Assembly: GCF_014161445.1 (NCBI RefSeq)
Contig: NZ_JABBXA010000005.1
Span: 62,001-126,000 of the forward strand
DNA: 64,000 nucleotides
Reading direction: 5' to 3'
DNA from: Microbispora sp. H13382
Lineage (GTDB): Bacteria; Actinomycetota; Actinomycetes; Streptosporangiales; Streptosporangiaceae
In this document: piece after piece, positions 5,651-36,873 of the stretch
Position numbering within the stretch: position 1 is the first letter of the stretch
How the letters are laid out: the number at the start of each line of letters is the position of its first letter
Program-made: the position numbers and the translations under genes
Notes under the pieces: model-generated
What the model was told of the DNA's origin: nothing
Database searches by the model: none
What the model saw: only the letters and a program-made list of their open reading frames with translations

Positions 5651-8287
<2,637 letters not shown>

Positions 8288-29301: not shown

Positions 29302-30639
29302 TCAGTTCGGGCAGGCGTCGTGGCAGCCGCCGAAGCGCCCGGTGTCCGGCGGGGTGAAGTGGGTCTCCCGTGTCCCCCGCACCGCCTCGGTCATCGCCTT
29401 CTTCCAGACGAGGCCGGGGATCGACGTCCCTCCCACACGGGCGTAGTGACGGCCGCCGATGGTGACGTCGGTCATCGGGTGCCAGAGGGCGCCGCGAACG
29501 TCGCCGAGGCTCACGGCCGAGGCCAGGTCAGGGGTGTAACCGGCGTACCAGGCGGTCCGGTGGGCGTCGCCCTCGCCGGGCATGCCCGCCGCGTCGCGGC
29601 CGATGCCCTTGAGCGTGCTGCTCGCCAGGACGTCCGACAGCACTCCGGTGACCGCGTCGGCGACCGCCGGGTCCAGGACCTGCACGCAGCGCGGCGGGAA
29701 GGTGCGCGGGGCGCCCGAGCCGTCCCGGATCTCGGTGATCAGCCTCGGCTCGCAGAAGCGGCCGCGGGCGGCGAGGCTCGCGTAGGAGTTGGCCACGGAG
29801 ACGGGATCGGCCTCGGTGGGGCCGAGCGTGAAAGACTCGAACTCGGGGAGCGGGCCCCCATCGGCGCTCCTGAGCCCGAGCCGCAGGGCCGTCTTGACGG
29901 TCTCACACAGGCCGACCTGCTCCTGCAAGCGGACGTAGAAGGTGTTCACCGCGTCCCGGGTGCCGGATCGCAGGGTGACGAACCGGTCCCCGCCCTTCTT
30001 CCGGTTGTGAAAGGAGACACGCGGATCGCCGACGGCGTTGCCCGCACAGTTCTTGAACGTCGCGAGGCCCCGGGCGCGGTACTCGTCCCCGACGAAGAAG
30101 CCGTCGTCGTATCGCAGACCGGCGGCGAACGCGGCGGCCAGGGTATAGGGCATCGCCGTCGTGCCCTGCTGGAAGCCCGGCCCGTCGGCCGGATCGCGGC
30201 TTGTGGCCATGGCTCTGACGGCGCCTTCACCCGGCGCGATCATGACCTGGGTGGCGATCTGTGCGTCCTCGCGGTGAACGTAGGCGTCCATGGCCCCCTG
30301 CGCGGCCCGCTGGAGCCGCAGGTCGATCGTCGTCTGGATCGTCAGGCCGTCACGGGTGAGCAGTCGCGGATCCTCGGCGAGAAGCCGCTGTCCGACGTAC
30401 CGGCAGAGGTAGGGATAGGCGCTCTCCGCGCAGTCGCCGGGCAACTCCTCGATGACGGCGCCCTCGGCGTCCAGCAGCACGCTTTTGCGGGCCACGGGGG
30501 AAGCGGGGGCCGTGGCGGTGGAAGCCGAGGCCACATGCTCCTCGCTCGCCATGTCGCCCGCCGAATTCCGCAGCAGCAGGAGAGCCGCGATCGTCGCACC
30601 CACCCCGGCGACGCCAAGGAACACCAGTAATGCCTTCAT
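29302..30639 (-). CDS. Degenerate penicillin-binding transpeptidase homologue (likely pseudoenzyme)
   Basis: This 445-residue protein has one N-terminal transmembrane helix (about 3-24) and a transpeptidase-like domain recognisable by TIDLRLQRAAQGAMDAY, DAVNTFYVRL and TAWYAGYTPDLASAV. All three catalytic motifs are lost. SxxK is replaced by Thr160-Thr-Ala-Met163, SxN by Ala230-Val-Asn232, and KTG(T/S) by MPGEG near residues 353-357. There is no glycosyltransferase domain. The frame is intact and a ribosome site (AAGGGC) precedes the ATG, so it is probably expressed as a non-catalytic protein. It lies divergently next to the disulfide-peptide operon. A binding, decoy or immunity role is speculation. 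Confidence 0.8.
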   Translation of the reverse strand: MKALLVFLGVAGVGATIAALLLLRNSAGDMASEEHVASASTATAPASPVARKSVLLDAEGAVIEELPGDCAESAYPYLCRYVGQRLLAEDPRLLTRDGLTIQTTIDLRLQRAAQGAMDAYVHREDAQIATQVMIAPGEGAVRAMATSRDPADGPGFQQGTTAMPYTLAAAFAAGLRYDDGFFVGDEYRARGLATFKNCAGNAVGDPRVSFHNRKKGGDRFVTLRSGTRDAVNTFYVRLQEQVGLCETVKTALRLGLRSADGGPLPEFESFTLGPTEADPVSVANSYASLAARGRFCEPRLITEIRDGSGAPRTFPPRCVQVLDPAVADAVTGVLSDVLASSTLKGIGRDAAGMPGEGDAHRTAWYAGYTPDLASAVSLGDVRGALWHPMTDVTIGGRHYARVGGTSIPGLVWKKAMTEAVRGTRETHFTPPDTGRFGGCHDACPN

Positions 30640-31099: not shown

Positions 31100-31672
31100 G
31101 TGGCCTATCTCTTCGCCTTCTGCCGGCTGCTCACGGGGATCGTCTTCCTCATGTCCGTTGTGAGCAAGTTGCGTGGGCGGACGGCGTACGAGGAGTTCAC
31201 GGCGGCCACTCGCGCCCTCACACGCCTGCCGGCCCGGCGGGTCAGGCCTGTCGCGGCGCTCGTCGCCGCCGCCGAGGCCGCCGTCGCGCCGCTGCTGGCC
31301 TGGGGGCCCACCGTGCTCGCCGGCTTCTGCGTCGCACTGGGGCTGCTCGCGGCCTTCACCGTGGCCATCGTCGCCGCGCTGCGGCGCGGCCGGCGGGTTC
31401 CCTGCCGCTGCTTCGGCGCCTCCGCCGTTCCGGTCGGCCCCGGTCATCTCGCGCGCAACGCCGTGCTCGTCGTCGCGGCCGCGGCCGGAGCGGTCCTGGC
31501 CGCGACCGAGGCGGTCGTGGCCCGGAGCGGAGCGGTCGTGACCGGGAGCGGAGCCGTCCTCGCGGACCTCGATCCGGCCGGGCTCGCCGCGGTCGCGCTC
31601 GCGGCCGGAGCCATGGCAGCCCTGCTGTCGGCGACCGGCGAGATCGCCGATCTGTTCACCAGTACACCCTGA
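31100..31672 (+). CDS. MauE/DoxX-type redox membrane protein
   Basis: This protein of about 190 residues has four to five hydrophobic helices and opens AYLFAFCRLLTGIVFLMSV, the usual MauE beginning. A PCRCFG motif (Cys102, Cys104) lies between helices, where MauE relatives keep a C-x-C. MauE-like proteins pair with thioredoxin-like partners and are thought to pass electrons between quinones and thiols, as DsbB/VKOR do. I chose the GTG at 31100, with AGGA five bases upstream; an ATG at 31088 is possible, and the GTG at 31058 overlaps the likely -10. It is the first gene of the peptide operon, 15 bp from the TlpA gene. Confidence 0.8.
   Translation: MAYLFAFCRLLTGIVFLMSVVSKLRGRTAYEEFTAATRALTRLPARRVRPVAALVAAAEAAVAPLLAWGPTVLAGFCVALGLLAAFTVAIVAALRRGRRVPCRCFGASAVPVGPGHLARNAVLVVAAAAGAVLAATEAVVARSGAVVTGSGAVLADLDPAGLAAVALAAGAMAALLSATGEIADLFTSTP
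31511..31552. repeat. Two 21-bp direct repeats inside the MauE-like gene
   Basis: The unit at 31511-31531 recurs at 31532-31552 with two mismatches. It encodes two copies of a seven-residue AVVxxSG element in a loop between helices. Confidence 0.7.
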
Positions 31673-31687
31673 CGGAGGTAGTCCCTC

Positions 31688-32230
31688 ATGCCGTTCCTGA
31701 CAGCGCTCGTGCTGGGCGTCGGCGTCCTGTGCCTGATCGACCTGGTGCTGACGGTCGGGGTGATCCGGCGGTTGCGGGAGCACCAGGCGATGCTGTCGGC
31801 GCGACCGGTGGCGTCCCCGCCGATCGTGCTCCCGCCCGGTGCGACGATCGGCGGCTTCTCCGCTGTGAGCACCGACGGCGTCCACGTCTCCGACGGAACG
31901 CTGACCGAGCCGGTCCTCGTCGGCGTCTTCTCGCCCGACTGCTCCGCCTGCCACGACCGCCTGCCGCAGTTCGCCGAGCGCGCGCGGACCTACCCCGGAG
32001 GACGCGGCAACGTGTTCGCCGTGCTCGTGGGTACGGAGGAGGAGGTGGCGGACCAGCGGCGGACGCTGGAGCCGGTCGCCCTGGTGCTGATCGAGGAGTA
32101 CGGCACCGGCCTGACGGGGGCGTTGCAAGTGAAGGGCTTCCCGTCCCTCGCCCTGGTCGACGAGCACGGGAGGGTCGTCGCCAGCGGGACCACTCTCGAG
32201 GACCTCGGCAAGATTCCCGCGCACGCGTGA
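31688..32230 (+). CDS. TlpA-like membrane-anchored thioredoxin
   Basis: This 180-residue protein has an N-terminal membrane anchor (about 3-26) followed by an extracytoplasmic thioredoxin fold. The active site is Cys85-Ser-Ala-Cys88 in FSPDCSACHD, and GFPSLALV supplies the cis-proline. With the preceding MauE-like protein it would form an oxidising (or reducing) thiol relay at the outer face of the membrane. GGAGG precedes the ATG. Its TGA overlaps the GTG of the ABC transporter gene, so it is coupled to export. Disulfide formation in the peptide encoded downstream is the obvious role, by inference. Confidence 0.85.
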   Translation: MPFLTALVLGVGVLCLIDLVLTVGVIRRLREHQAMLSARPVASPPIVLPPGATIGGFSAVSTDGVHVSDGTLTEPVLVGVFSPDCSACHDRLPQFAERARTYPGGRGNVFAVLVGTEEEVADQRRTLEPVALVLIEEYGTGLTGALQVKGFPSLALVDEHGRVVASGTTLEDLGKIPAHA

Positions 32231-34116
32231 CGGCACAGTTGCGGGGTCATGCCGGAGCGCGGGCGGTGGTCACCGCCCTCGGCATGGCCTGGCGGGCGAG
32301 CAGGGGGCTGACCACCGCCTTCGCCGCCCTCAGCATGCTCATGGCCGCCCTGCCGGTCACGATCGCCTGGTGCACCAAGCTGGTGCTCGACGAGATCGCC
32401 GGGGGCCGGCCCGAGGTCGGCGTGACCACGGCTCTGGGCGCCGCGATCGCCGGGTGCGGGGTGCTGACGGCGCTCGGACCGCAGGTCGTCCAGTACGTCA
32501 GGGACGAGAGCGGGCGCAGGGTCGGTCTCGTCGCCCAGGACCGCCTCTTCCGGGCCACCGAGCGGTTCGTCGGCCTCGCCAGGTTCGAGGACCCCGCGTT
32601 CCTCGACCGGATCCGGATGGCGCAACAGTACGGCGGGGCGACCCCGGGCATGGTGGTCTCCGCCGCGCTGGGCGGCGCCAGGACGGTGATGACCGGTGCC
32701 GGGTTCCTCGTCTCCCTTGTGACGATAAATCCGTGGATGGCCGTCCTCGTGGTCGGCGCGGCGGCGCCGTCTCTGGCCGCGGAGCTCTGGCTGTCCCGGC
32801 GGCGTGCCGCGATGCTGTGGGGCATCGGCCCGGTCGAGCGCCGCGAGTTCTTCTTCGGTGAGCTGCTCGTCAACGTCCGGGCGGCCAAGGAGCTGAGGCT
32901 CTTCGGCATCGGAGCGCACCTGCGCGGGCTGATGAACGCCCAGCGGCGGGCCGCGAACGCCGAGCGGAGCCGTACCGACCGGCGCGAGCTCGGCGCCCAG
33001 GCAGTGACCGGGACCACGGCGGCGCTGGCGGCCGGGAGCGGCCTGCTGTGGGTTCTCGTCTCCGCCGCGAACGGCACGGGCGGGGTCGGCGACGTGGCGC
33101 TGTTCGTCGCGGCCGTCGCCGGAGTCCAGGCGGCGGTGAGCGGGCTCGTCGTCGAACTCGTCACCGCGCACCAGCAGGTGCTGCTGTTCGGCCACTACCT
33201 CGCCGTCCTGGACGCCGAGCCGGACCTGCCGGTCCCGGCCCGGCCCCGGCGGGCCGGCCCGCTGCGCCGGGGGATCGAGCTGCAGGACGTGTGGTTCCGC
33301 TACTCGCCCGGCCACCCCTGGGCCCTGCGCGGCGTGAGCCTGACCATCCCGTACGGCACGGCGGTGGCGCTCGTCGGGAGAAACGGCGCGGGCAAGAGCA
33401 CCGTGGTCAAGCTCCTGTGCCGGATGTACGACCCCGGACGCGGCTCGATTCTCTGGGACGGGGTCGATCTCCGGGAGATGGACCCGGCTGAGCTTCGCGC
33501 CCGGATCGGGGCGGTGTTCCAGGACTACATGGAGTACGACATGACCGCGGCCGAGAACATCGGCCTCGGCGATCTCGCCGCGCTGGACGACCGGGGGAGG
33601 ATCGAGGCGGCCGCGCGGCGGGCGGGCGCGCACGGCGCCGTGAGCGGCCTGCCCCGGGGGTACGACACCATGCTGTCGCGGGTCTTCGCCGATCCCCCCA
33701 AAGACGGCGGCGCGGAAGACGACGGCGCCGTGACGGGCGTCCACCTGTCGGGCGGGCAGTGGCAGCGGCTCGCCCTCGCCCGCGCCTACCTCCGGGGTGA
33801 GCGGGACCTGCTGATCCTGGACGAGCCCAGCTCGGGACTCGACGCCGAGGCGGAGCACGAGATCCACCAGGGCCTGCGGGAGCACCGCCGCGGGCGCACG
33901 AGCGTGCTGGTCAGCCATCGGCTCGGCGCCGTGCGCGACGCGGACCACATCGTGGTCCTCGACGGCGGACAGGTCGCCGAGCAGGGCACGCACGCCGGGC
34001 TGCTGACGCGTGGCGGGATCTACGCCCACCTGTTCACCCTGCAGGCGGAGGGATACCGGCAGCGGGAGGACCGGGACGCGGGCGCCGCGCACGACCGGCT
34101 CTCGGGGGCACGATGA
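32227..34116 (+). CDS. ABC exporter (fused membrane and ATPase domains) for a peptide
   Basis: This 629-residue half-transporter has membrane helices in residues 30-330 and a nucleotide-binding domain after about 350. It has Walker A GRNGAGKS (384-391), Q-loop VFQDYMEYD, signature LSGGQWQRLALA, Walker B DLLILDEPSSGLD and H-loop VSHRLG, so the ATPase should be active. There is no N-terminal C39 peptidase domain, which many RiPP exporters carry. A separate S26 peptidase gene overlaps its stop (ATGA), replacing that function. The GTG start overlaps the TlpA stop. A short acidic insert (KDGGAEDDGAV) precedes the signature. Confidence 0.9.
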   Translation: MTAQLRGHAGARAVVTALGMAWRASRGLTTAFAALSMLMAALPVTIAWCTKLVLDEIAGGRPEVGVTTALGAAIAGCGVLTALGPQVVQYVRDESGRRVGLVAQDRLFRATERFVGLARFEDPAFLDRIRMAQQYGGATPGMVVSAALGGARTVMTGAGFLVSLVTINPWMAVLVVGAAAPSLAAELWLSRRRAAMLWGIGPVERREFFFGELLVNVRAAKELRLFGIGAHLRGLMNAQRRAANAERSRTDRRELGAQAVTGTTAALAAGSGLLWVLVSAANGTGGVGDVALFVAAVAGVQAAVSGLVVELVTAHQQVLLFGHYLAVLDAEPDLPVPARPRRAGPLRRGIELQDVWFRYSPGHPWALRGVSLTIPYGTAVALVGRNGAGKSTVVKLLCRMYDPGRGSILWDGVDLREMDPAELRARIGAVFQDYMEYDMTAAENIGLGDLAALDDRGRIEAAARRAGAHGAVSGLPRGYDTMLSRVFADPPKDGGAEDDGAVTGVHLSGGQWQRLALARAYLRGERDLLILDEPSSGLDAEAEHEIHQGLREHRRGRTSVLVSHRLGAVRDADHIVVLDGGQVAEQGTHAGLLTRGGIYAHLFTLQAEGYRQREDRDAGAAHDRLSGAR

Positions 34117-34568
34117 CGCCGGTCCTGCTCGTCCTGCTCGCGACGGCGCTCCCGGCCGCCGCCGTGACGGCGGTCCGGCGGACCCTCCGTGTCGTGGAGG
34201 TGCACGGGGAGAGCATGAAGCCCGGCCTGCGGCCCGGCGACCGGGTCCTCGTACGGAGGCTGCGTCCCGGCGTCCCCGGCGGGCTCGGCCGGCGCGTACG
34301 GCGCGGGGACATCGTCGTCATCGCCCGCGTGGGCCCCGGGGAGGGTTTCACGCTCGACGGCGGCACGAACCTGGTGATCAAGCGGGCCGCGGCCGTGGCC
34401 GGGGACCCGATGCCTCCGGATTTCGAGACGTTGGGAGTGGCCCGCGTGCCGCCGGGGCGGCTGCTCGTCCTCGGGGACAACCCGTCGCGGAGCACCGACT
34501 CCCGTCAGTGGGGCCTGCTTCCCGAAAGCAGGATCACGGGCGTCGTTCTCCGGCGGCTGAACGCGTGA
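34113..34568 (+). CDS. S26-family signal peptidase (small, dedicated)
   Basis: This 151-residue protein has one N-terminal membrane segment (3-20) and the type I signal peptidase catalytic dyad: Ser34 in HGESMKPGL and Lys90 in NLVIKRAAAVAGD. GDNPSRSTDSRQWG (121-134) is box E of the family. It is shorter than housekeeping LepB. Its start overlaps the exporter stop by four bases, and it directly precedes the cysteine-rich peptide gene, whose leader ends Ala-Glu-Ala, a signal-peptidase-like AxA site. I infer that it trims the exported precursor. Confidence 0.9.
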   Translation: MTPVLLVLLATALPAAAVTAVRRTLRVVEVHGESMKPGLRPGDRVLVRRLRPGVPGGLGRRVRRGDIVVIARVGPGEGFTLDGGTNLVIKRAAAVAGDPMPPDFETLGVARVPPGRLLVLGDNPSRSTDSRQWGLLPESRITGVVLRRLNA

Positions 34569-34663
34569 ACCAGGTGAACGCGATACAGGAGCTCGTGTAT
34601 CGGAATGGTATGTCCGTCATCGAATCCGCTCCTAATGTCGACGAATGTAAAGGAGTCCCGCAT

Positions 34664-34670
34664 AGGAGGA
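34664..34670 (+). promoter_or_regulatory. Strong ribosome site that fixes the peptide start
   Basis: AGGAGGA lies five bases before the ATG at 34676. The frame is open upstream to a GTG at 34565 that overlaps the S26 stop. However, the intervening codons (AAT, GGT, GCT, CCT, TGT, AAA, GGA) lack the GC-rich third positions of real genes here, so the ATG is preferred. Confidence 0.75.
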
Positions 34671-34675
34671 ACCAA

Positions 34676-34852
34676 ATGACGCGGACGATTCAGCGGCTGG
34701 CGGACCGGATGGTCGCCCGGCTGGTCCCGGCCACCCGCGCTGAGGCGATCAACTGCTGGTACGAGGGCTCGACCTGCGTCCGCCGCTACTGCTGCAGCGG
34801 GTCGGAGATTCCCGGCGGCCGCTACTGCACCGGGTACGAGTACCTCTGCTAG
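34676..34852 (+). CDS. Precursor of a six-cysteine, knottin-like secreted peptide
   Basis: This 58-residue precursor has an N-terminal basic, amphipathic leader of 24 residues (TIQRLADRMVARLVPATR) ending in Ala22-Glu-Ala24. The core (25-58) has cysteines at 27, 34, 39, 40, 51 and 58. The spacing C-x6-C-x4-CC-x10-C-x6-C follows the C-C-CC-C-C order of inhibitor cystine knots. The core is also rich in aromatics (five Tyr, one Trp) and ends at a Cys. The leader is too polar for Sec, which fits export by the operon's ABC transporter and cleavage at AEA by the S26 peptidase. Disulfides would come from the TlpA/MauE pair. Activity is unknown. Confidence 0.85.
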   Translation: MTRTIQRLADRMVARLVPATRAEAINCWYEGSTCVRRYCCSGSEIPGGRYCTGYEYLC

Positions 34853-34860
34853 ACGAGCAC

Positions 34861-34920
34861 GGCGGAGCGCCCCATCGCACAGCGCCCCATCACACTGGGG
34901 GCGCTCCGCCCTCGCATTTT
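34861..34920. terminator. Strong terminator after the peptide gene, with alternative stems
   Basis: A perfect 13-bp stem pairs 34861-34873 with 34898-34910 and is followed by ATTTTCTCTTT. The left arm is partly duplicated (GCGCCCCATC twice), so a shorter competing hairpin can form from about 34881. It lies between the peptide gene and the convergent regulator gene. Confidence 0.85.
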
Positions 34921-34925
34921 CTCTT

Positions 34926-36725
34926 TCACCGGATTCCTCGTTTTTCCGAGGCCGAGGCGATTTCCCTGGCGTACAGGCGGGTGAGATCGTTCATCCGGTA
35001 GTGGTCGGGGGCCACCGGTTTCATCAGGCGGAGATCGGCCAGCCTGCCGAGCGCCGCCCACGCCGTACGCCGGTCGCACCCGAGGAGCTCTGCCGCGATC
35101 GCCGACCGGCAGTCGGCCACGCCTCGCTCGCCGAGCCGGTGGAACAGGGCGAGCGCGCAGCCGTCCGCCGTCCCCTCGCACTGCCGCAGGGCCTGGTAGT
35201 CGAGGTCGAGGGCGCCCCGCACGGAAAGGTCACCGCAGGTCAGCAGGTCGAGCCGGTGCTCCTCGTCGGCCAGCATGTCGGCGAACGCCGCCAGCGTCCA
35301 CTCCCGCCGCACGGCCAGTCGCTTGCCCGCGATCCGCAGCGCGAGCGGCAGGTTGTCGCAAAGCCGGGCCACTCTCCGCACCTGCTCGGGGTCGACCCGG
35401 TCCCGGCCGCAGAGCCCGGACAGCAGCTCGTACGCCGCGTCGTCGGTGAGGGGAGCGAGCGGCAGGTGGACGACATCGTCGAGCGCCGCGAGCACCGCCC
35501 TGCTGGTGACCACGAACTGGCAGCCGGGACAGGCGCCGATCAAGGGACGCAGCTGCCCTTCGCCGGTCGCGTTGTCGACGAGGACCAGCACACGCTTGGC
35601 CTCCGTGGCGGTCCTGAACTGCAGCACCGCGTCGTCGAGGTCCGGGGCGATCCGGTCGCCCGGCAGCCCCAGCAGGCTCAGCAGCCGCGCCAGCGTCTCG
35701 TACGCGCCGGGCCTGGGAAGGGACCGCAGGTCGACATGGAGCACACCACCGGGAAAATCCGGCGCCGCCGCCCGGACGGCACGCAGGGCCAGGGCCGACT
35801 TCCCCACTCCCGCAGGACCGTGTACGCCGACGGGCCGCGGGGGAGAGGCGGCGATCGCGGCCACGAGCTCTTCCAGCTCCGGGTCCCGGCCCACGAGACA
35901 TCCCGGACCCGCGGCCGGCGCCGCCTTGGGCGCGGGCGACGGGTGGGACCGATCGCGGGCGGGAGTAACGGGGATCGCCAAGAGCGCGGCGTCCCGGTTG
36001 AGTATGCTCCGGTGCAGCCCGGCCAGCTCCGGCCCGGGCTCGACGCCCAGCTCCTCCGCCAGGAACGTGCGCGCCCGCCCATAGGCGGACAACGCCGCCG
36101 CCGAGTCTCCGCTGCGGTACAACGCGAGCATGAGGGTGCCCCACAGCCGCTCCCTGGTGGGGTGGGCGGCCACCATCTCACGGAGCTCCGGCACCGCGTC
36201 GGCGTGCTCGCCCAGCCTGAGGCGGGCCTCGGCCCGCGCCTCCAGGGCCAGGCAGCGCTGCTCGGCGAGCGCGTCCAGGCGCGGGCCGAGCGCCGCCGTC
36301 CTGGGCACGTCCTCGGCCGGTGCGCCCCGCCAGCACGTGAGGGCCGCCGACAGGTGCCGCAGCGCCGCCTCCGGCCGCCCGGCGGACAGCGCCTGCCTGC
36401 CCTGGCGCAGGGCGTCGGCGAACTCGGTCACGTCGAGCTCGCCGGCCCGCACGGCGAGGACGTAGCCCGGCGGCCGGGCCGTCAGCCGGTCGCCGTCTCC
36501 CAGCGCGGATCGCAGCCGGTTGACGTAGGTGCGGACGTTGGCGACGGCGGAGCGGGGCGGCTCCTCGTCCCACATGGCCATGACCAGCCGGTCGATCGAC
36601 ACGACCCGGTCGGGTTCGAGCAGCAGCGCGGTCAGCAGGGCGCGCTGCTTGGGCGAGCCGAGCGGGACCGGCCTGCCGTTCCTCCTGACCTCGATCGGGC
36701 CCAGCAACCGGAACCGGAGGCTCAT
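34926..36725 (-). CDS. SARP/AfsR-type transcriptional regulator (BTAD + NB-ARC)
   Basis: This 599-residue regulator has an OmpR-like winged helix (about 5-93; RFRLLGPIEVRRNGRPVPLG is the classic SARP start), a bacterial transcriptional activation domain (about 97-245) and an NB-ARC ATPase from about 275 with P-loop GPAGVGKS (303-310), VLVLVDNA Walker B and LPLALRIAGKRLA. The C-terminus has a winged-helix-like segment. SARPs activate biosynthetic clusters. It converges on the peptide operon and is its most likely pathway regulator, by inference. The ATG at 36725 has GGAGGGCGGG upstream; residues beyond it in the frame are not family-like. Confidence 0.9.
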   Translation of the reverse strand: MSLRFRLLGPIEVRRNGRPVPLGSPKQRALLTALLLEPDRVVSIDRLVMAMWDEEPPRSAVANVRTYVNRLRSALGDGDRLTARPPGYVLAVRAGELDVTEFADALRQGRQALSAGRPEAALRHLSAALTCWRGAPAEDVPRTAALGPRLDALAEQRCLALEARAEARLRLGEHADAVPELREMVAAHPTRERLWGTLMLALYRSGDSAAALSAYGRARTFLAEELGVEPGPELAGLHRSILNRDAALLAIPVTPARDRSHPSPAPKAAPAAGPGCLVGRDPELEELVAAIAASPPRPVGVHGPAGVGKSALALRAVRAAAPDFPGGVLHVDLRSLPRPGAYETLARLLSLLGLPGDRIAPDLDDAVLQFRTATEAKRVLVLVDNATGEGQLRPLIGACPGCQFVVTSRAVLAALDDVVHLPLAPLTDDAAYELLSGLCGRDRVDPEQVRRVARLCDNLPLALRIAGKRLAVRREWTLAAFADMLADEEHRLDLLTCGDLSVRGALDLDYQALRQCEGTADGCALALFHRLGERGVADCRSAIAAELLGCDRRTAWAALGRLADLRLMKPVAPDHYRMNDLTRLYAREIASASEKRGIR

Positions 36726-36873
36726 CCCGCCCTCCGCAGGCCCGAGGGGGCGGACGGCGGTTCCCAGCCGGATGATCGATGCACGAAAGGACCTCCGTAG
36801 GCGTCTCGGGAGGAGCGTCTGAGGAAAGCACAACGAAGATCGCCGCCCGCATGGGCTCCCACAAGGTGCGGGA

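Follow-up and report, generated by a model that had tools for sequence, protein, structure and literature searches.

A five-gene cassette in the actinobacterium Microbispora sp. H13382 encodes a MauE-like membrane protein, a TlpA-like thioredoxin, an ATP-binding cassette (ABC) exporter, an S26 signal-peptidase-type protease and a small cysteine-rich precursor. It lies in a 64,000-nucleotide stretch (RefSeq assembly GCF_014161445.1, contig NZ_JABBXA010000005.1, positions 62,001 to 126,000 of the forward strand), hereafter the window, in which the positions below are numbered. We find that the cassette belongs to a large family. The reading that we favor, with slightly better than even confidence, is that a leader-guided Cys-rich peptide and four proteins would together yield a secreted, disulfide-locked product that is oxidized and trimmed at the inner side of the membrane, facing the cytoplasm. 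This reading rests on a recurring gene set, a conserved leader, a hypervariable core, an even number of cysteines and the near-invariant CxC, CxxC and Ser-Lys residues of the machinery.

A preliminary description of this DNA had proposed these genes in this order, and we confirmed five plus-strand open reading frames (ORFs) arranged as proposed, with the following features:

31058/31088/31100-31672, plus strand: MauE-like membrane protein with three in-frame start candidates (PF07291, 94.1 bits)
31688-32230, plus strand: TlpA-like thioredoxin with a single N-terminal membrane anchor (weak AhpC-TSA and Redoxin matches)
32227-34116, plus strand: ABC exporter, permease fused to ATPase (PF00005)
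34113-34568, plus strand: S26 signal-peptidase-type protease (TIGR02227, 74.4 bits)
34664-34669, plus strand: AGGAGG, ribosome-binding site of the precursor, read directly
34676-34852, plus strand: precursor ORF of 58 amino acids with six cysteines, comprising a 24-residue leader and a 34-residue core
34676-34747, plus strand: leader of 24 amino acids with Pro at -7 and an A-x-A end, from the leader alignment
34748-34852, plus strand: core of 34 amino acids with six cysteines spaced C6C4CC10C6C, and stop codon, from the sequence and an AlphaFold2 model

The MauE-like protein exceeds the Pfam cut-off of 27 bits, and its C-R-C codons occupy 31403-31411 on the plus strand. The TlpA-like protein carries C-S-A-C at 31940-31951 and scores below the cut-offs for AhpC-TSA (18.6 bits) and Redoxin (17.4 bits). 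The exporter matches ABC_tran (PF00005, 99.7 bits), with MsbA_rel as its top NCBIfam match, under cut-off; consistent with the preliminary description, no C39 peptidase domain was matched in it by the Pfam and NCBIfam scan. The S26 protein scores above the signal peptidase I cut-off of 47, with catalytic Ser and Lys codons at 34212-34214 and 34380-34382. We also read from the sequence the overlaps described earlier, GTGA between the TlpA and ABC genes and ATGA between the ABC and S26 genes. The precursor, which has no family match in Pfam or NCBIfam, has a leader that ends A-E-A and the 34-residue, six-Cys core that had been proposed. Its AGGAGG sits six bases 5' of the ATG and is also found upstream of most orthologues printed. 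The spacer at 34569-34675 contains a further AAGGAGT-like stretch that is present in many orthologues and is a possible regulatory element.

We examined whether the genes travel together in a precursor-first set of 86 regions, which comprises the window, 25 regions from the first genome search and 60 from profile searches. The controls were 20 regions at round coordinates in genomes holding the system. All four partners were found in 62 of the 86 regions, three in 14, two in 5, one in 1 and none in 4, such that at least two partners accompany the precursor in 81/86. MauE was present in 66 regions, TlpA in 78, ABC in 80 and S26 in 77; among the controls, MauE, TlpA and S26 were each found in 0/20 and a passing ABC protein in 2/20. 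The co-occurrence that the preliminary description had suggested searching for is thus observed. Among 61 complete regions we counted 20 orders and orientations, which shows that gene order is shuffled across regions and the gene set retained. Across those 61 regions, the leader co-varied most with S26 (rho 0.39), less with TlpA (0.33), ABC (0.28) and MauE (0.20) and scarcely with the core (0.08, from noisy core alignments), and within the machinery TlpA co-varied with ABC at a rho of 0.81. In one Microbispora genome, about 4.5 kb with response-regulator and kinase genes separates S26 from the precursor (L026:9282-13814); the two genes are adjacent in most orthologues.

Searching from the exporter instead, 296 genomes of the class yielded 40 places in 19 genomes, with at most four exporters scored per genome, so that genomes with more than four are underestimated. 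A Cys-rich precursor was present at 37 of the 40 places: 32 were recognized by the leader profile, one by eye (L201), three are divergent (L174, L202 and L203) and one has a core only (L186). The places without a precursor are L191, L196 and that of a 38%-identical exporter in L185. Homologous loci therefore retain a Cys-rich ORF in nearly all cases, and precursor regions carry the same four partners rather than S26, TlpA and MauE proteins paired with an unrelated substrate, in line with the preliminary description. The cores of the divergent precursors end at 7163 (plus strand) in L174, 10949 (minus) in L202 and 10983 (minus) in L203, and an FtsX-type permease gene neighbors the L174 cluster.

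Leaders were compared after filtering for profile matches that start by position 8, reach position 20 and score >6, a filter that kept 103 of 379 raw matches and favors complete leader ends. Pro at -7, Ala at -3 and Ala at -1 occur in 88/88 distinct filtered leaders, Asp at -15 in 85/88 and Arg at -14 in 82/88. A-x-A is the expected cleavage site of signal peptidase I-type enzymes. With 19-24 aligned residues and a longest apolar run of 6 (median 3), the leader is short and lacks an extended apolar stretch, which makes it unlike a Sec signal. The start and end rule dropped 275 raw matches, of which 18 score >6 and five look like real precursors (two in L115 and one each in L119, L125 and L146); three of these five have A-x-A and two do not, which limits the 88/88 figure to the filtered set. 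One further match left out for its low score (4.2) has A-x-A and six cysteines. Among 12 orthologous copies, including that of the window, the ratio of nonsynonymous to synonymous polymorphism (pN/pS) is 0.10 for the leader, against 0.62 for the core. Together with precursor matches in 13 of the 14 other Microbispora genomes, these ratios indicate that the precursor ORF is not a chance reading frame.

In contrast to the leader, the core varies widely. The 101 distinct cores span 22 to 75 residues, contain Ser and Thr, and consist of 16.5% Cys; 67 core representatives (<75% similar) display 53 Cys spacing patterns. The number of cysteines is even throughout: four in 13 cores, six in 65, eight in 20 and ten in 3, and the 67 representatives are likewise all even. 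The same was true for 20/20 additional cores from the exporter-first search, among which L174, L186 and L201-L203 were picked by eye and L204 was omitted as identical to L184, and six cores that failed the filter have six cysteines each, as counted from printed letters. The regions were chosen with a profile that contains core cysteines, which means that Cys richness was partly selected and parity was not. Unpaired or Ser/Thr-linked cysteines would give about half odd counts, and the even number everywhere suggests that the cysteines pair with each other; we consider this the strongest single argument for cysteine-cysteine pairing in the cores. The AlphaFold2 model of the window core alone has three strands and a mean predicted local distance difference test (pLDDT) score of 91.8, and it had no significant match among solved structures in the PDB; the core likewise had no significant sequence match. 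Its cysteines follow the order C-C-CC-C-C with 6-4-0-10-6 spacing, as in a knottin or inhibitor cystine knot.

The system is widespread in the family of Microbispora. The precursor is present in 14/15 Microbispora genomes examined, including the present one, and matches occurred in 16/60 genomes of the first genome search. A profile built from 17 precursors found matches in 89/250 genomes of the family, which represent 23/68 genera, and in 19/394 genomes drawn from the class, four of them outside the family and all in one genus. The precursor of L143, from a genus outside the family, has eight cysteines, and its protein-database relatives are named Streptomyces, Embleya and Yinghuangia. The 60 regions fetched outside the first search comprise 40 out-of-genus regions with stronger hits, nine in-genus, four from another family and seven weaker ones; many weaker profile hits were left unfetched, and G247, at a contig edge and with an internal stop, was excluded. 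Strain H13382 itself holds at least five clusters: the window, L134 and L184 (all partners), L135, whose region lacks MauE, and L186, whose region lacks S26. The latter four lie on other contigs with cores unlike that of the window, and in L186 no leader shares the reading frame of the core. Using the full profile, we also observed multiple different precursors per region, with seven in L115:8076-13792 and four in L119:8386-9232, the latter array having no MauE, TlpA or S26 in the fetched regions.

The residues expected to carry out maturation are highly conserved. The MauE CxC cysteines are present in 86/86 aligned homologues, the two TlpA CxxC cysteines in 102/102 and 98/102, and the S26 catalytic Ser and Lys in 93/93 and 94/94. 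The preliminary description had implied that the peptide is exported and then oxidized and cut outside, and the charges flanking the membrane anchors suggest otherwise. In 74/74 TlpA proteins with a recognizable anchor, Lys and Arg are more frequent in the 12 residues that follow the anchor (mean 2.53) than ahead of it (mean 0.01). For S26, the same direction holds in 64 of the 68 proteins with an assignable start (means 2.81 versus 0.41). This count supersedes a stricter one that retained 19 of 77 proteins, 19/19 of them inward, and although it is slightly weaker it leaves our assessment unmoved. By contrast, the two housekeeping signal peptidases of the same genome show the opposite pattern, being Lys-rich before the anchor with at most one Lys after it. 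MauE has a mean of 2.99 Lys or Arg in the 14 residues before CxC (67 proteins). By the positive-inside rule, which is the basis for reading anchor charges as topology, the TlpA and S26 domains and the MauE CxC loop are predicted to face the cytoplasm, and a leader that does not resemble a Sec signal fits this orientation. Oxidation and trimming may consequently precede export.

The surroundings of the cassette include a likely regulator, and two features lie directly downstream:

34854-34914, no strand assigned: strong hairpin separating the precursor gene from the convergent SARP gene (-36.6 kcal/mol, z -4.82), probably a terminator
34926-36833, minus strand: AfsR/SARP-type regulator with BTAD and NB-ARC-like domains (PF03704, 153.7 bits)

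A SARP/AfsR-like gene occurs in 73/108 system regions and 1/20 controls, and the gene at 34926-36833 likely regulates the cassette. The other neighbors scanned encode an acyl-CoA dehydrogenase, a protein with a weak alpha/beta hydrolase match, a FUSC-type membrane protein, a penicillin-binding-protein-like protein, a TetR protein, a small helix-turn-helix-like protein and an AAA protein. The penicillin-binding-protein-like ORF (29302-30639, minus strand) has a transpeptidase match of 20.9 bits, just under the Pfam cut-off of 22.1, and is retained beside the cassette in nine regions. The preliminary description had seen no enzyme that modifies ribosomally synthesized and post-translationally modified peptides (RiPPs), and indeed none was found among the scanned window neighbors, with no lanthionine synthetase match in the 13 window proteins scanned. 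Nor was a tailoring enzyme family common to the 108 regions among the 25 commonest gene families, a census that used crude gene calling and in which those 25 families were viewed and six representatives scanned. Apart from the families already named, the most frequent are general ABC ATPases, seen in 24 regions, response regulators in 18 and histidine kinases in 13. LanKC-like genes were noted close to 2/108 regions, at L035:1557-4544 (RamC_N match) and L128:2369-5086 (by similarity to the L035 gene).

For this cassette, disulfides, export and cleavage are all predicted from sequence, and the steps could proceed as follows. Lacking a Sec-type hydrophobic stretch, the leader would bring the precursor to the membrane machinery, where TlpA would accept electrons from the core thiols and pass them to MauE and onward, probably to quinone. 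S26 would then free the core by cutting after the A-x-A of the leader, and the ABC protein would export the locked peptide. As judged from the anchor charges, leader targeting, oxidation and cleavage would all take place on the cytoplasmic face, with export as the last step. The presence of a SARP regulator and the rapid change of the cores suggest that the product is a secreted specialized metabolite, which most likely serves as a weapon against other microbes. We also entertain, more tentatively and at somewhat less than even confidence, a broader reading in which the system constitutes an undescribed class of ribosomal peptide with disulfide locking as its sole modification, made on the cytoplasmic face by an inverted TlpA-MauE relay and an inverted signal peptidase. 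One conserved leader would in this case feed open-ended folds of 4 to 10 cysteines to an ABC exporter, in a manner like venom-peptide diversification.

Several observations weigh against the cytoplasmic-face reading. The topology rests on the positive-inside rule; the S26 charge pattern is reversed in 3/68 proteins and equal in 1 (L112, L120, L133 and L141 together), 17/68 carry at least one Lys or Arg before the anchor, and 9/77 proteins had no start within reach. The MauE topology was read without a methylamine-dehydrogenase MauE as reference, as no such dehydrogenase was over cut-off in 396 genomes, and disulfides made in the cytoplasm would need to survive a reducing compartment. Exceptions also occur in the leader and the gene set. 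Two of the six real-looking precursors outside the filter, one each in L115 and L125, lack A-x-A, and the exporter-first leaders of L190 and L192 end V-x-A. MauE was not found by profile in 20/86 precursor-first regions, and L191 and L196 hold most of the machinery with no precursor found. L174, L202 and L203, from another actinobacterial family, have eight-Cys precursors whose cores are not preceded by A-x-A, and their regions lack S26. Five of the 86 regions (L039, L100, L119, L147 and L150) have no partner or ABC alone, the sole partner in L147 being a general ABC protein, and added flanks gained no MauE, TlpA or S26; their genomes contain part or all of the set in other regions, and it is possible that partners are supplied in trans. 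Finally, the proposed antagonism is a guess from context.

The main rival is a classical order of events, in which the precursor leaves the cell in reduced form through the ABC protein and is then handled by TlpA, MauE and S26 at the outer face of the membrane. Canonical signal peptidases, including housekeeping ones, act outside the membrane, as do most TlpA/ResA proteins, and A-x-A is the usual site for the former; oxidation is easier outside the cytoplasm, and the four S26 proteins without an inward charge pattern fit such an order. However, the charges of all 74 anchored TlpA proteins and of 64 S26 proteins point inward, the housekeeping signal peptidases reverse this pattern, and a Lys/Arg-rich stretch precedes the MauE CxC, which leads us to regard the classical order as a serious but less likely rival. 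We also considered whether the small protein binds thiols, or metal through Cys ligands, such that the cassette manages thiols or metal and exports no disulfide peptide. The Cys content of the cores would suit this role, and a TlpA/MauE pair could act in thiol chemistry of another kind. Yet the core and its Cys spacing are hypervariable, unlike metal-site motifs, every counted core is even in cysteines, and the set includes a leader, S26 and an exporter, which makes this explanation improbable.

A thioether peptide of lanthipeptide type, with a synthetase supplied in trans, could draw on the Ser and Thr of the cores and on the LanKC-like genes near two regions. We judge it highly improbable, because thioethers to Ser/Thr do not need an even number of cysteines, no tailoring family recurred among those viewed, and the thiol-oxidation genes would be left without purpose. 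Lastly, the cassette MauE/TlpA pair resembles the MauE and MauD that mature methylamine dehydrogenase, where MauE is speculated to aid disulfide formation (available text of PMC7794033), and the peptide ORF could in principle be incidental to that process. The small subunit of that dehydrogenase (PF02975) had no match in the H13382 genome and was over cut-off in 0/396 genomes of the phylum, with one match below it, which refutes this function for this genome as far as the PF02975 model reaches. The peptide is moreover conserved and recurs with the set, and we assign this possibility almost no weight.

If the cytoplasmic-face reading is true, the gene set would be a widespread, largely undescribed route to disulfide-locked peptides. 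Actinobacteria would then be a large, untapped source of stable disulfide-rich peptides that have a maturation line of their own, and the leader motif would provide a search key for genome mining as well as a tag with which chosen disulfide peptides could be produced in bacteria. Bacteria would moreover be able to form stable disulfides on the reducing side of a membrane through a quinone-linked relay, and signal-peptidase folds could be turned inward to mature peptides.

The cassette shares features with several known systems. Disulfide bacteriocins such as pediocin and sublancin combine a short Cys peptide, a thioredoxin-like helper and an ABC exporter, and in these systems a C39 peptidase on the exporter cleaves a double-glycine leader. 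In contrast to these and other class II bacteriocins, the cassette has no C39 domain, an A-x-A leader, and separate S26 and MauE proteins. The nickel superoxide dismutase maturation protease, which trims a cytosolic protein, also belongs to the S26 family (TIGR02754); the window S26 scores 45.8 bits against it, below the curated cut-off of 63.25, and the substrate differs. Knottins and O-type conotoxins have the six-Cys order C-C-CC-C-C and pair a constant leader with a fast-changing core. Both traits are shared by the window precursor, with no significant fold or sequence match.

The preliminary description recognized no described class with this combination, which holds in part. The decRiPPter study (2020) lists three mauE-containing candidate RiPP families from Streptomyces, with predicted precursors of at least eight cysteines, which are uncharacterized there (PMC7794033). 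As in the cassette, MauE (in one family also MauD) is found beside a predicted Cys-rich precursor, and the decRiPPter filter itself required a peptidase, a transporter and a regulator (PMC7794033). The comparison is by description only: in its available text, that report covers Streptomyces only and gives no leader, protease type, parity, topology or mechanism, and its families have at least eight cysteines compared with six in the window core and 4 to 10 in its relatives (PMC7794033). The linear polyphosphorylated peptides (LPP) are also ribosomal and share a signal-peptidase-type leader protease, LppS, and an MsbA-like exporter (PMC13381572). In assays by in vitro translation and by co-expression, LppS trims a RiPP precursor, and according to the same report, as far as its available text goes, SpI-like peptidases in RiPP pathways were undescribed before that case (PMC13381572). 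By analogy, LppS may serve as a partial precedent for S26-type trimming before export. The LPP pathway, as described there, differs in that it phosphorylates its peptide using a RiPP recognition element (RRE), an HprK-like kinase and an NTP transferase, occurs mostly in Bacillota and has a core set without a redox pair (PMC13381572); none of the five cassette proteins matched an RRE, HprK-like kinase or NTP transferase in Pfam or NCBIfam. Taken together, and as measured against the open-licence literature searched, the system is one of leader-guided ribosomal peptides and has a real chance of being a class in its own right.

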